41,465 bases of DNA from an archaeon. GTDB taxonomy: Archaea > Thermoproteota > Nitrososphaeria > Conexivisphaerales > UBA164. Both the position numbers and the translations under genes were made by a program. The notes beneath the pieces are model-generated. The model had not been told where the DNA came from and did no database searches. It saw only the letters and a program-made list of their open reading frames with translations. The stretch is from assembly GCA_021792955.1 (NCBI GenBank), contig JAJYTP010000008.1, forward strand, positions 1 through 41,465, read 5' to 3'. Positions 1,687-24,322 of the stretch are shown piece after piece (position 1 is the first letter of the stretch; each line of letters opens with the position of its first letter).

Positions 1687-3759
1687 TCAGCCAAATTCGT
1701 CAAGGGTCATGCCCTTGGAATCAAATTTTGTGCCGAGCCCACGGTATATTGTGCCTGCGGCCTCCAGCAGGAGCATCTTGTACCGGTCGGCGTCATATCC
1801 GCCGTTTTCAGCCAGTTCAAGGGGCTTCACCCTTTCGTAAGGATCGGCGCTATCGCCGTTTACATAAACGAAGCTTATCTCGTCGCCGATCTCCCTTCCA
1901 AGGCCAGACAGTTGCGCCGCTGCAACGCGCTGGGCGGTGTTGTGTACATATGCCGAAAGCCTCTTCTTCAATCTCCTTTTGATGGCCAGAGATTCCACCG
2001 GCAAATCGCCGCCCCCGATCATCTTTAGGTTACTTTCGATGAACCTCAGGCCGTCGCGCATGCCGGCGCCGTATATATCACCCAGTGTGCTACGGTCAAG
2101 GATCAGGGCCACGAGCTCCTCCTGGAATTTCCTTATGAATGGGGGGACGTCAGATCTCCTCAATTCTATCCCCCTTGCAACCACTTCACCATCCGTGGTT
2201 ATACCGAAGTACTTCTTAAGGGCTGAAGTGCTTTCGTCGGACTTGAGAGGTAGAAACGACAGAAACCTGAAATGGTTGTCCAGGGACATGGGCAGCCCGG
2301 TTTCCGCCGCTATGGTCGCGGCGAGCGTTTCATAATCCTCCCTTTTTGCACCATCCCTCCTGACAAAGAGGGAATCGACGTCGCCGTAAACTATGGTGAA
2401 ACCGTGGGACTCGGCTATGGCCTTTGCCCTTATGATGGCCTCCCTGGACATCCTGTTTATCTCTTCGAACGTAACCATGTTGCCGAACCTGTTGCTGGCG
2501 CAGCCGGCTATGCCGTACTGGCTCACAAGTATATACTTGAGCGTGCTTATCCTCTCCTCACAGTAGATGCGCTCTGGGCTGCCCCTTTGGAGCGATCTTT
2601 TGATGCCTTTGAGCCACAGCCTCCTGCTCAGCCATGGGCCCATCACCGTGGGGATGAGCCGGAACAGATCATCCGATTCAGGCTCATAGCTGAGCCCTCC
2701 CTTCATTATCAGGCTGGGGTACTGAGAGTCGAAGTCCAGCGACGCCACGTTTTCGTGTAAACCGTGCAGCGGGGTGAAGGTTACGCCACCTCTGTCCCTT
2801 TCTACGAGGCTCATCAGGCTTCTGGCATACTCAAAGTACCCCTCCTCCGGTATCGCGTAGCCCCTGCTCATCAATTCAAAGCAGTTCCTAGAATCTATGC
2901 TCTTGTTGCTCAGCCACCTGGTGGCGAGGCCCATGGGCACAAAGGAGAACCTTGTCCTTTCGACGAGGCCGGCCATCCCCCATTCGTCCGCGCTGAATCC
3001 ATAGAACACGCTGCCCAGCACCACCCGGCCCGCAAGGGACCCCTGTGCCCTGAGCTGAGCACCATCAGCCGAGCACCTGCCGAGCTTTAAGAGCTGCCCA
3101 TCCACCTTAAATTCATCCTTACGCCTTTTGAAGACGATCAGATCGGGATCGGCGTCCGCCACCAGTTCAGCAAAGGAGGTGAGGACCGCTTCTATGCCGC
3201 CGCTGAACCTTTTCTCCACCCCGGCCGCTCTGGCATCCATCTCCATATCCCGCCCTTCAACATGAATACTATTCACGACCAGGGCCCTGAACTGCGGCGG
3301 CGCCAACTCGGCATGGTCGTCCAGCTTCCGCATCGACAACAGCCGGCCATCATGGTATTCTACCGATACCCTGGACGTAGGCTCTACCTTCAGCCTTGTG
3401 AAGAGATAGCGCTGTACGTCCAGCAGGTCCGAATCGTACAACCCCCTGACGAACCTGCTCCGCCTTAACCCATTCAGTATTCCCTTAAACAGGTGCGGTG
3501 GAGCTTCCACCCTCAGAAGCCGCTTCCTTGCAGAGCTACCCAGTGTCGTGCTCTTAGCCTCCACCTCAACGGTGCATCCGGCTTCGGTCAGCATATACAG
3601 GAGCTCCTGCTCAGCGGCCCGGTCCGCCGGCTCTACATAGAGGAACGGCCTGTAGCTGTCGATAAGCCTTAGCGTTTCGCCTTCGATGGTCCTGATCCAT
3701 ATTACCGCCCTTTCACCATCGACATACACGTCCAGCAACCAGCCGCTAACCGGATTCAA
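1687..3759 (-). CDS. Family B DNA polymerase, PolB2-like, apparently exonuclease-deficient
   Basis: Motif A LDFDSQYPSLI, motif B-like LKYILVSQYGIAG, motif C VYGDVDSLFV, and KKYFG/GIELRRSD thumb motifs. The exo region (ALVVNSIHVEG ... DPDLIVFKRRKDEF) lacks the DxE and NxxxFD acids. Confidence 0.9.
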   Translation of the reverse strand: MNPVSGWLLDVYVDGERAVIWIRTIEGETLRLIDSYRPFLYVEPADRAAEQELLYMLTEAGCTVEVEAKSTTLGSSARKRLLRVEAPPHLFKGILNGLRRSRFVRGLYDSDLLDVQRYLFTRLKVEPTSRVSVEYHDGRLLSMRKLDDHAELAPPQFRALVVNSIHVEGRDMEMDARAAGVEKRFSGGIEAVLTSFAELVADADPDLIVFKRRKDEFKVDGQLLKLGRCSADGAQLRAQGSLAGRVVLGSVFYGFSADEWGMAGLVERTRFSFVPMGLATRWLSNKSIDSRNCFELMSRGYAIPEEGYFEYARSLMSLVERDRGGVTFTPLHGLHENVASLDFDSQYPSLIMKGGLSYEPESDDLFRLIPTVMGPWLSRRLWLKGIKRSLQRGSPERIYCEERISTLKYILVSQYGIAGCASNRFGNMVTFEEINRMSREAIIRAKAIAESHGFTIVYGDVDSLFVRRDGAKREDYETLAATIAAETGLPMSLDNHFRFLSFLPLKSDESTSALKKYFGITTDGEVVARGIELRRSDVPPFIRKFQEELVALILDRSTLGDIYGAGMRDGLRFIESNLKMIGGGDLPVESLAIKRRLKKRLSAYVHNTAQRVAAAQLSGLGREIGDEISFVYVNGDSADPYERVKPLELAENGGYDADRYKMLLLEAAGTIYRGLGTKFDSKGMTLDEFG

Positions 3760-3770
3760 TTGGCCTGATT

Positions 3771-4058
3771 TTACCTTTTTTCCAGCGCGTGGAGCCTTTC
3801 TTGCAGCTCGAGCAGCTGCCTCCTAAGGTCGTCTATCTCAGCCCGGTTGTGAACGTTGGCAGTGAGATTTAGCGAATCAACGATGGTGGCCATCTCGGAA
3901 TTGGTCATGGCCGCGTGTTCCAGATCCCAGGCCTCGGCCACTAATTCTTCAAACGCCCTCCTGTCGCCGGAGTCCCTCAGGAGCTGCACATATCCCCTCC
4001 TTAACCTGCCCAGGACGTCCTTGTATTCCTCCCGGAACGCAGGGGTTACCCTTCCCAT
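3771..4058 (-). CDS. Small coiled-coil protein in the polB cassette
   Basis: The 134-aa ORF overlaps the upstream gene; the internal ATG (MGRVTPAFREEYKDVL...) at 4058 follows the upstream stop by a few nt. C-terminus is a predicted coiled coil (AEIDDLRRQLLELQERLHALEKR). Confidence 0.65.
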   Translation of the reverse strand: MGRVTPAFREEYKDVLGRLRRGYVQLLRDSGDRRAFEELVAEAWDLEHAAMTNSEMATIVDSLNLTANVHNRAEIDDLRRQLLELQERLHALEKR

Positions 4059-4062
4059 CCTG

Positions 4063-4887
4063 TCACCCCTGCCATCCGTCCAGCTGAGCATAGTCCCCAG
4101 GGATGACCATGGCGCTGCTGGGCGTCCTCTTCGAATGATGCTTGACGAGCTCGGCCTGGACCACGCCGGGGCCAACCTCGCGGAAGGCCACCATCACCCC
4201 CGCCGTATGCAGCATCATCGTGGTGGATATAGCGGGCCTTTCACCTACCCGGCAGTCCACCGTTATCACCATGGGGATCCCGTGTGCCGTGCATACGCGT
4301 TTTAGGAGCGATAAGGAAAGGTCGATGTTACCCACCCTCCGGTGGAGCCGGCCTCCAAGGAACCTGGAAAGCCTGTGAACCAGCACCAGGCTGGTGGAGC
4401 CGGCCTCTCGTTCGATCATCTCGGCCAGCGCCCTGGCCGCGTATGGCTGTCTCAATTCGTTATATGCGGCGGAAAAGTACACGTTCCTGAATACCATGAA
4501 CGGGTCCATGCCAATGGCCTTAGCATAGCGTGCCAGTTTATCGAGGTCTACAAACGTCTTGTCCGAATAGTAATCCGTGTTATTCATGTAGGCCACCCTT
4601 CCCATTGCGCTGCCCCTTACGAGGAGGCCGTGTATCATGTCATCAACGAACCTCTGGTTACCGTAGAACAGGTAAATCTGACCCTTCGCCAACCCCCCAT
4701 CCCCGATCAGCCTGTCCAGTTCGGGATAACCGGTTGAAATAACGCCGTCATTAAACAATAGCTCTGAAGCTTTAACCATTGAAACCGCTGGGTTTAGCCT
4801 GTAACCTCCCCCCCTCGCTTCCTTACTCATCGCTTCTCCAGCTTCTTCCGGGTTTTCTGCTGGGAACCGGCCTACCGACATCGCCAT
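4063..4887 (-). CDS. RadA/RecA-superfamily protein with degenerate ATPase motifs
   Basis: RadA/KaiC-like start (ISTGYPELDRLIGDGGLAKGQIYLFYGNQ...). GKT is absent from the P-loop position, and the Walker B position reads SLVLVHRLSRF instead of VDS. Confidence 0.75.
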   Translation of the reverse strand: MAMSVGRFPAENPEEAGEAMSKEARGGGYRLNPAVSMVKASELLFNDGVISTGYPELDRLIGDGGLAKGQIYLFYGNQRFVDDMIHGLLVRGSAMGRVAYMNNTDYYSDKTFVDLDKLARYAKAIGMDPFMVFRNVYFSAAYNELRQPYAARALAEMIEREAGSTSLVLVHRLSRFLGGRLHRRVGNIDLSLSLLKRVCTAHGIPMVITVDCRVGERPAISTTMMLHTAGVMVAFREVGPGVVQAELVKHHSKRTPSSAMVIPGDYAQLDGWQG

Positions 4888-4897
4888 CGGCCCTTGG

Positions 4898-5290
4898 TCA
4901 GCGGACGTTTGACGACTTCCTGCCGATCATGTTTATGATCCTGTACACTTCAGGTATGGCGTATGCAAACCCCACGTGAACGCAGTCGTTTGAATTGTCC
5001 AGATCGCATACAAGTTCACCGTTCCTGACCTTCACTTCGACTATCCGATCGAGCTTGGCATCCCTGAGGGTGACGCCGTCCTCGGTCATGCCCACTTCTG
5101 ATAGGAACGGAGCCTTGCTGGCGAGTACCCTGTCCGCCTCGATCACGTGCCAGATCAGGTCATTGACGAACCCCGTGAACGTGTTTATTCCAGCGTCCAA
5201 CAGCGGGTGCTTCTTCCTTTCATAGATCGCCCTTAATTCGTCGGCATATTCCTGCCGCAGCATGAAATTTGACCAGCCCTTTTGTGGCAT
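4898..5290 (-). CDS. Small conserved protein, possibly ribbon-helix-helix-like, first gene of the polB cassette
   Basis: 130-aa ORF, same strand and tightly packed with 4063-4887; N-terminal SNFMLRQEYADELRAIYERKKHPLLDAGINTFTGFVNDLIWHVIE pattern. Confidence 0.6.
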   Translation of the reverse strand: MPQKGWSNFMLRQEYADELRAIYERKKHPLLDAGINTFTGFVNDLIWHVIEADRVLASKAPFLSEVGMTEDGVTLRDAKLDRIVEVKVRNGELVCDLDNSNDCVHVGFAYAIPEVYRIINMIGRKSSNVR

Positions 5291-5323: not shown

Positions 5324-5339
5324 TACTGTATAAACAGTA
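5324..5339. promoter_or_regulatory. TACTGT-ATAA-ACAGTA palindrome upstream of the polB cassette
   Basis: Perfect 6-bp arms with 4-bp spacer, overlapping a TATA-like GTTTATAC on the minus strand about 35-50 nt upstream of the ATG at 5290. Confidence 0.55.
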
Positions 5340-23270: not shown

Positions 23271-24322
23271 CCTTTGTTGCACAAATTTGATAACACTGCA
23301 TAAAATTTTTGACTTCATAGTAATTTAACCAGGTTGCATAATGTCAAATTATGACAAACTGGCCGGAATACAACAAGAAGCTGGTTAATGAAGCAGTTGA
23401 CGTATTTGTAAGCACAGACCTGCTTGTGGACCAGGAGAAGCAGCTTAAACAGATGAACAAGGATAAGAGGGGTAGGCCTTATCGTTATCCTTATGCGCTG
23501 ATACTCATAATTCTTGCTGTAAGGGAATACTTCAGCCTGCCCTACAGGCAGACCGAGGGGTTTGCCAGGATGTTAGGCGGAATATGGGGGGCAAGGATAC
23601 CGTCTTACACGCAGATATGCAGGAGGCAGAAGGAAATCAATATACCTCCTGGTGTAAAATATGACAGGGATAAGCCTGTTGACATGGCATAGATTCTACA
23701 GGCATAAAGGCGTTCAACAGGGGTGAATGGATCAGGCAGAAGCGGGCTGTCAGGAGGGAATGGATAAAGCTGCACGTAACGTGTGATACAGCAAACAGCC
23801 TGATAACAAGCGTTCAGGTAATAGATGAGCATGAATCTGACGGGAAAGAGTTAGGCAAGCTTGCTTGTTGACGGAGCAAAGGATACTGTTGGAAAGCTAA
23901 GCAGGGTTTTTGGTGATTCGGCATACGATTCAAGGGTCATCTTCAATTACGCTGCAGGCGTAGGTCCCGAACCTGTTATCAAGCCAAGGATGAATTCCAC
24001 AGGCAGGTCCAGAGGATCTTATGTAAGGGCACAGACAGTCAGGGAATTCCTATCGGACCCGCAGGCATGGAAGGAGAAGCACAGGTACGGCCAGAGGTGG
24101 CAGGTAGAGACTGTGTTTTCCTCTTTAAAGAGGATGCTGGGAGAACACTTCACATCAGTACTAAACATTGGAATATACAATGAAATCATTTCCAAGGTGT
24201 TCACGTATAACATCGTGGAGGCTAACAGAAATGCGTGCAGGTTGTAGGGAACAGACGCTATAGATCGTTAGCGGACCCCCTTGGATGCAATAAAACGGAA
24301 GACTCAATTTATGCAACAAAGG
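23271..24322 (+). mobile_element. IS5-like DDE insertion sequence, decayed
   Basis: Terminal inverted repeats CCTTTGTTGCACAAATT (23271-23287) and reverse complement of AATTTATGCAACAAAGG (24306-24322), 16/17 matching, enclosing the transposase fragments. Confidence 0.85.
23351..24247 (+). pseudogene. DDE transposase with two frameshifts
   Basis: Fragments MTNWPEYNKKL... / IDSTGIKAFNRGEWIRQKRAVRREWIKLHVTCDTANSLITSVQVIDEHESDGKEL / VDGAKDTVGKLSRVFGDSAYDS...QVETVFSSLKRMLGEH lie in successive frames. Confidence 0.85.

Follow-up and report, generated by a model that had tools for sequence, protein, structure and literature searches.

The window analysed here is a 41,465-nucleotide stretch of archaeal DNA whose minus strand carries, between positions 1687 and 5290, four tightly spaced open reading frames, all confirmed by an ORF check (Table 1). 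A first-pass annotation had described them as a candidate mutasome composed of a 690-aa family B polymerase, a coiled-coil protein, a RadA-like protein, and a 130-aa protein. The four packed genes are there and encode a 690-aa family B polymerase (PolB2), PPB2, iRadA, and the 130-aa protein, but as a mutasome candidate the set is not novel, because the three-gene operon iRadA-PPB2-PolB2 has already been published as the archaeal PolB2 mutasome (PMC4104785, PMC11791011). The cassette is this operon plus one extra gene, and as a mutasome it is therefore ordinary in kind. When the window was compared with a 93%-identical congener, dN/dS amounted to 0.19 for PolB2, 0.06 for PPB2, 0.26 for iRadA, and 0.04 for the 130-aa gene; all four are under purifying selection, arguing that they are real genes. 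Across genera of the class and phylum, iRadA and PPB2 adjoin PolB2, often as a single fused ORF. Co-conservation, which the first-pass annotation had named as a check on all four genes, holds for these three; the 130-aa gene is linked to them within the window's genus alone.

Table 1 Features of the PolB2 mutasome operon (positions in the window).
Feature	Position	Strand	Basis
PolB2 DNA polymerase, 690 aa, TTG start; DxD-retaining clade, exonuclease-dead	1687..3759	-	Pfam/NCBIfam, tree, alignment, AlphaFold2 model
C-terminal GMTLDEFG, putative degenerate PCNA-binding-like tail	1690..1713	-	resembles SKGMSLEEFFGK, which ends another PolB of the order
Motif C, YGDVDS, residues 458-463, canonical DxD intact	2371..2388	-	alignments
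Motif B, ILVSQYG, residues 410-416, Val for the usual Asn	2512..2532	-	alignment, PolB2-wide signature
Motif A, DFDSQYPSLI, residues 342-351	2707..2736	-	alignments
D(K/R) motif, D322-R323	2791..2796	-	invariant in a 15-sequence alignment
PPB2, 95 aa, MGRV start (family MGRT/MGRM arm)	3771..4058	-	phmmer/HMM matches to PPB2 halves of fused genes, alignment
iRadA, RadA/Rad51 homologue lacking both Walker A and the N-terminal domain of RadA	4063..4887	-	Rad51 match, alignment
130-aa protein, probable ribbon-helix-helix-type DNA-binding protein with C....DCxH in its C-terminal half, putative regulator	4898..5290	-	alignment, RHH_5, AlphaFold2 model
16-bp palindrome TACTGTATAAACAGTA, possible operator (weak)	5324..5339	.	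34 nt upstream of the 130-aa gene

The RadA-like protein of the first reading does match Rad51 (E = 3e-5), but its identity is iRadA: the P-loop signature GxxxxGK[ST] was sought in it and not found. Likewise, the presumed coiled-coil protein is a genuine gene whose product is PPB2. Its 134-aa ORF with a TTG start (3771–4175) is overlong, and the family-conserved MGR start gives a 95-aa protein that begins with MGRV at 4058. In the alignment, PPB2 corresponds to the C-terminal half of the iRadA-PPB2 fusions of sister genera; it is a small, presumably helical protein with the conserved MGR N-terminus, encoded by the adjacent gene. Only 4 nt separate the iRadA stop from the PPB2 start; since the same split occurs in all three congeners, a sequencing error is an unlikely cause.

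The polymerase ORF matches Pfam DNA_pol_B at E = 1.5e-22, and its best NCBIfam matches are type B polymerase models, with scores under their curated cut-offs. For an AlphaFold2 model of the protein (pLDDT 82), the best PDB fold matches were archaeal family B polymerases (TM about 0.5–0.7). We placed it in a tree of 45 sequences that included five other (non-PolB2) PolB. All PolB2 split from these five at SH-aLRT 99 and the window polymerase lies inside PolB2. As to the active sites, the alignments bear out the earlier description of intact motifs A (DFDSQYPSLI) and C (YGDVDS), and of missing exonuclease residues: V.N is aligned against the canonical DxE at Exo I, Exo II is degenerate with its NxxxFD pattern gone, and the Exo III region is absent. 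The Val in place of Asn in motif B was also read correctly but is not peculiar to this polymerase; the column holds Val in all 41 readable PolB2 rows and Asn in all five other PolB, which makes it a signature of the PolB2 family. Ahead of motif A, a D(K/R) motif—modelled as touching the N-terminal arm of PPB2 (Timinskas 2025, PMC11791011)—is found in 39 of 41 PolB2 rows.

Within PolB2, the window polymerase belongs to a 21-row clade (SH-aLRT 100) that mostly keeps the motif C DxD, with three rows (L040, L042, and L094) lacking the first Asp. The other PolB2 clade, of 19 rows, is without this Asp and includes two sequences, probably from Sulfolobales, with an IID motif (L112 and L115). Retention of DxD in some TACK PolB2 has been reported earlier (PMC11791011). 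Apart from PolB2, two genomes of the order (L061 and L062) encode a PolB that keeps the polymerase motifs NATYG and YGDTDS and has lost the Exo I–III pattern, so that, judged from sequence, a second kind of exo-minus PolB may be present in them.

Thermoplasmata, the taxon initially assumed, was rejected as the source of this DNA: the closest named match, with a 98%-identical polymerase, is a MAG labelled Nitrososphaerota, and the host is accordingly a Nitrososphaerota relative (TACK). Our scan of named genomes returned two loci for the cassette, both near-copies. The window's own genome (1.17 Mb, 70 contigs, 73% complete) carries a Y-family polymerase on contig C49; PolB2 is therefore not the sole candidate for translesion synthesis (TLS), and the insertion step may fall to the Y-family enzyme. 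Contig C13 encodes another PolB, with canonical motifs (L059, G000:C13), and an intein-like insertion is seen in its motif C between YGD and TDS. Elsewhere in the window, two ORFs at 23351–24247 resemble parts of a transposase by eye.

The 130-aa gene is the first in the operon, 10 nt from iRadA, and is found at the mutasome locus only in the window's genus. Of the 61 genomes of the class, 35 encode homologues of its product, some of these genomes being without a close PolB2 match, and outside the window's genus the homologues lie in other gene contexts. Its candidacy as a conserved mutasome part was rejected outside the genus, where it is absent from the locus. By eye, the alignment of the family has a strand-helix-helix pattern like that of ribbon-helix-helix (RHH) proteins in its N-terminal half, and the RHH_5 profile matched three of 16 members (best E = 3.5e-5), the window protein not being among them. 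An AlphaFold2 model (pLDDT 84) has a helix-helix N-terminus and several strands in the C-terminal half; in a PDB fold search it gave no match at E ≤ 0.001. Weak as this assignment is, the protein is probably of the RHH DNA-binding type, and because it is both limited to one genus at this locus and probably RHH-like, we consider it, with moderate confidence, likely to be a regulator rather than a subunit.

The palindrome upstream of the 130-aa gene is present in all three congeners; at 5324–5339 it is the sole exact copy in its own genome, and a related sequence lies upstream of the paralogue on contig C2. Its significance in the window was p = 0.125, and among the 16 upstream regions only one gave a value under 0.02; we rejected it as a proven operator because it is not significant alone. 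Palindromes resembling GTACTTTAAAGTACGGTA are also seen about 15 nt upstream of several copies of the gene in one taxonomic family of the class (L088–L090 group), most of whose genomes hold one copy (L088, L089, and L090; near 4954–5388 in L090). The homologues there are close to genes that by eye look like amoA/B/C, a Dam-type methylase, and an HTH protein. The C2 paralogue and homologues in two relatives (L077, L079, L080) are divergent from a conserved gene, and a ParB-N-like gene was noticed by eye near the homologue in L079 and L080.

In relatives, the place in front of iRadA is taken by other genes. A RadA with an intact Walker A motif lies directly upstream of iRadA-PPB2-PolB2 in ten genomes (L039–L043, L048, L049, L095, L097, and L129). 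Eight of these, from the window's class, encode another RadA at a different place in the genome, as found by a RadA search whose scope did not extend to L095 and L097. In a RadA tree, most of these copies are placed outside the clade of housekeeping RadA; their union in one clean clade was rejected, as it appeared in 35% of bootstrap trees and a long row (L099) is without a P-loop. A divergent orc1/cdc6 gene adjoins the operon in L043, L045, L046, L047, L097, and L129, and in L045, L046, and L047 a conserved CCCCCCTCCCCCC run is seen between it and iRadA. Orc1/Cdc6 was found in the other 18 relatives searched and went undetected in all three MAGs of the window's genus (G000, G001, and G002), among whose listed matches there was likewise no second full-length RadA; as these MAGs are 73–82% complete, neither absence is proven. 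Searching the literature for an active RadA paralogue connected with PolB2 retrieved nothing—in the papers covered, orc neighbours and iRadA are described and we saw no mention of an active RadA in the operon—and we did not find a genus described that lacks the upstream RadA and Orc1/Cdc6 and has the 130-aa gene. It is possible, if rather doubtful, that the DxD-keeping PolB2 of Nitrososphaerota and of related Thermoproteota have an extended mutasome with a dedicated, ATPase-intact upstream RadA, functionally comparable to RecA in Pol V, and that the window's genus has lost both this RadA and the customary neighbour Orc1/Cdc6, control of the operon having passed to an RHH-type protein.

In the bacterial ImuA-ImuB-DnaE2 system, a RecA-like protein without ATPase motifs stands next to an error-prone polymerase, an arrangement that the cassette resembles. 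The analogy with this system, drawn in the first-pass annotation, holds at the level of function but not of gene identity: iRadA is a paralogue of RadA that has gone dead, and the polymerase is of neither the ImuB nor the DnaE2 kind. A C-family DnaE2 and a Y-family-like ImuB are both absent from the cassette, whose only polymerase gene is of family B. E. coli Pol V (UmuC-UmuD'2-RecA) similarly combines a polymerase, a RecA-family partner, and a small partner that is multimeric and has an N-terminal arm—a parallel to the PolB2 mutasome drawn in PMC11791011. It differs, however, in using a Y-family polymerase and an active RecA, and neither its polymerase nor its small subunit is homologous to the window's. 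With respect to UmuC/UmuD, the cassette is free of Y-family genes; the one in this genome is that on C49. The closest known system is the PolB2-PPB2-iRadA mutasome itself (arCOG07300 operon; Makarova 2014, Timinskas 2025), which shares with the window the three gene families and the order iRadA-PPB2-PolB2, along with the MGR arm, the loss of the P-loop and of the exonuclease, and the D(K/R) motif. The window deviates from it by the extra 130-aa gene at the front and by an intact motif C DxD, which is reported for some TACK members only, and from the fused iRadA-PPB2 of sister genera by its 4-nt split. Sulfolobus Dpo2 resembles the window polymerase in PolB2 membership, a dead exonuclease, and the motif B Val, seen also in L112 and L115; these two rows sit in the clade without the first motif C Asp, whereas the window polymerase is in the DxD-keeping one.

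We consider it very probable that this Nitrososphaerota locus is a PolB2 mutasome operon, encoding a proofreading-free translesion complex with iRadA and a PPB2 trimer, and with the 130-aa RHH-like protein most likely as its regulator. Gene identities, active-site state, phylogenetic placement, and operon conservation, together with the published Sulfolobus Dpo2, support the initial idea of an error-prone or translesion polymerase with dedicated factors as far as PolB2, iRadA, and PPB2 are concerned, but not for the 130-aa protein. In S. islandicus, Dpo2 acts as the damage-inducible, mutagenic TLS polymerase and alone accounts for targeted mutagenesis (PMC7390963); Sulfolobus Dpo2 also lacks exonuclease and extends mispaired ends efficiently (PMC8764526). 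By analogy, the window polymerase is most likely a damage-induced, proofreading-free extender in translesion synthesis. The architecture of the complex is taken from structural models, namely the PolB2-iRadA-PPB2 heteropentamer with its PPB2 trimer (PMC11791011), and the extender and mutagenic activities from Dpo2; it is on the basis of PolB2 family membership that we infer the Sulfolobus mechanism, and with it damage induction and mutagenesis, for the host organism. Accordingly worded, the model would be that PolB2, its polymerase center intact and its exonuclease dead, joins iRadA and the PPB2 trimer in a translesion complex, which would take over the primer end when the replicative polymerase stalls and extend it beyond lesions and mispaired ends with no proofreading, so that survival would be gained at the price of mutations. 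The 130-aa protein, encoded by the operon's first gene, would most likely control it in the host; the same first position is held in relatives by the divergent orc1/cdc6, by the P-loop-intact RadA, or by both.

Different roles for the polymerase were weighed against this. Makarova 2014 proposed that PolB2 is inactivated and has an orc-linked role (PMC4104785), and the orc1/cdc6 genes that several relatives carry in divergent orientation to the operon would fit a scaffold without catalytic activity whose role is to regulate replication or the use of origins. We regard such a scaffold as highly unlikely here, given that the motif A Asp and both motif C Asp are intact and that Sulfolobus Dpo2 is active though its first motif C Asp is lost (PMC8764526). 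Intact polymerase motifs, a PCNA-binding-like tail, and the high fidelity with which Dpo2 copies undamaged DNA (PMC8764526) could be expected of an accurate repair or replicative enzyme; yet the exonuclease acids are lost, the protein groups with PolB2 and has the dedicated partners iRadA and PPB2, and the canonical-motif PolB on C13 is a separate enzyme, making this quite unlikely as well.

An origin in a mobile element or virus that brought its own polymerase appears scarcely credible: the cassette is patchy within the class and the window holds the transposase-like ORFs mentioned above, but the same operon recurs across genera among chromosomal-type neighbours, its polymerase is nested in cellular PolB2, and no integrase or capsid gene was noticed beside it. 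For the 130-aa protein only, a role as fourth structural mutasome subunit in the window's genus has to be considered. It shares the operon, at its short distance from iRadA, and is under the strongest purifying selection of the four genes; its RHH-like N-terminus and the many homologues in the class that lie in other contexts, including genomes without a close PolB2 match, weigh against a subunit, which we judge a minor possibility.

We thus regard the operon as a well-supported further PolB2 mutasome that comes with two leads, the upstream RadA of relatives and the 130-aa gene of the genus. With it, Nitrososphaerota gain a PolB2 mutasome whose catalytic motif is intact. Whether an active recombinase partner is required for archaeal TLS, as it is for Pol V, could be tested directly on the RadA paralogue that recurs upstream, and the swap of neighbours—orc1/cdc6 or RadA versus the 130-aa RHH-like protein—provides a concrete lead on the control of damage-induced mutagenesis in LexA-less archaea.
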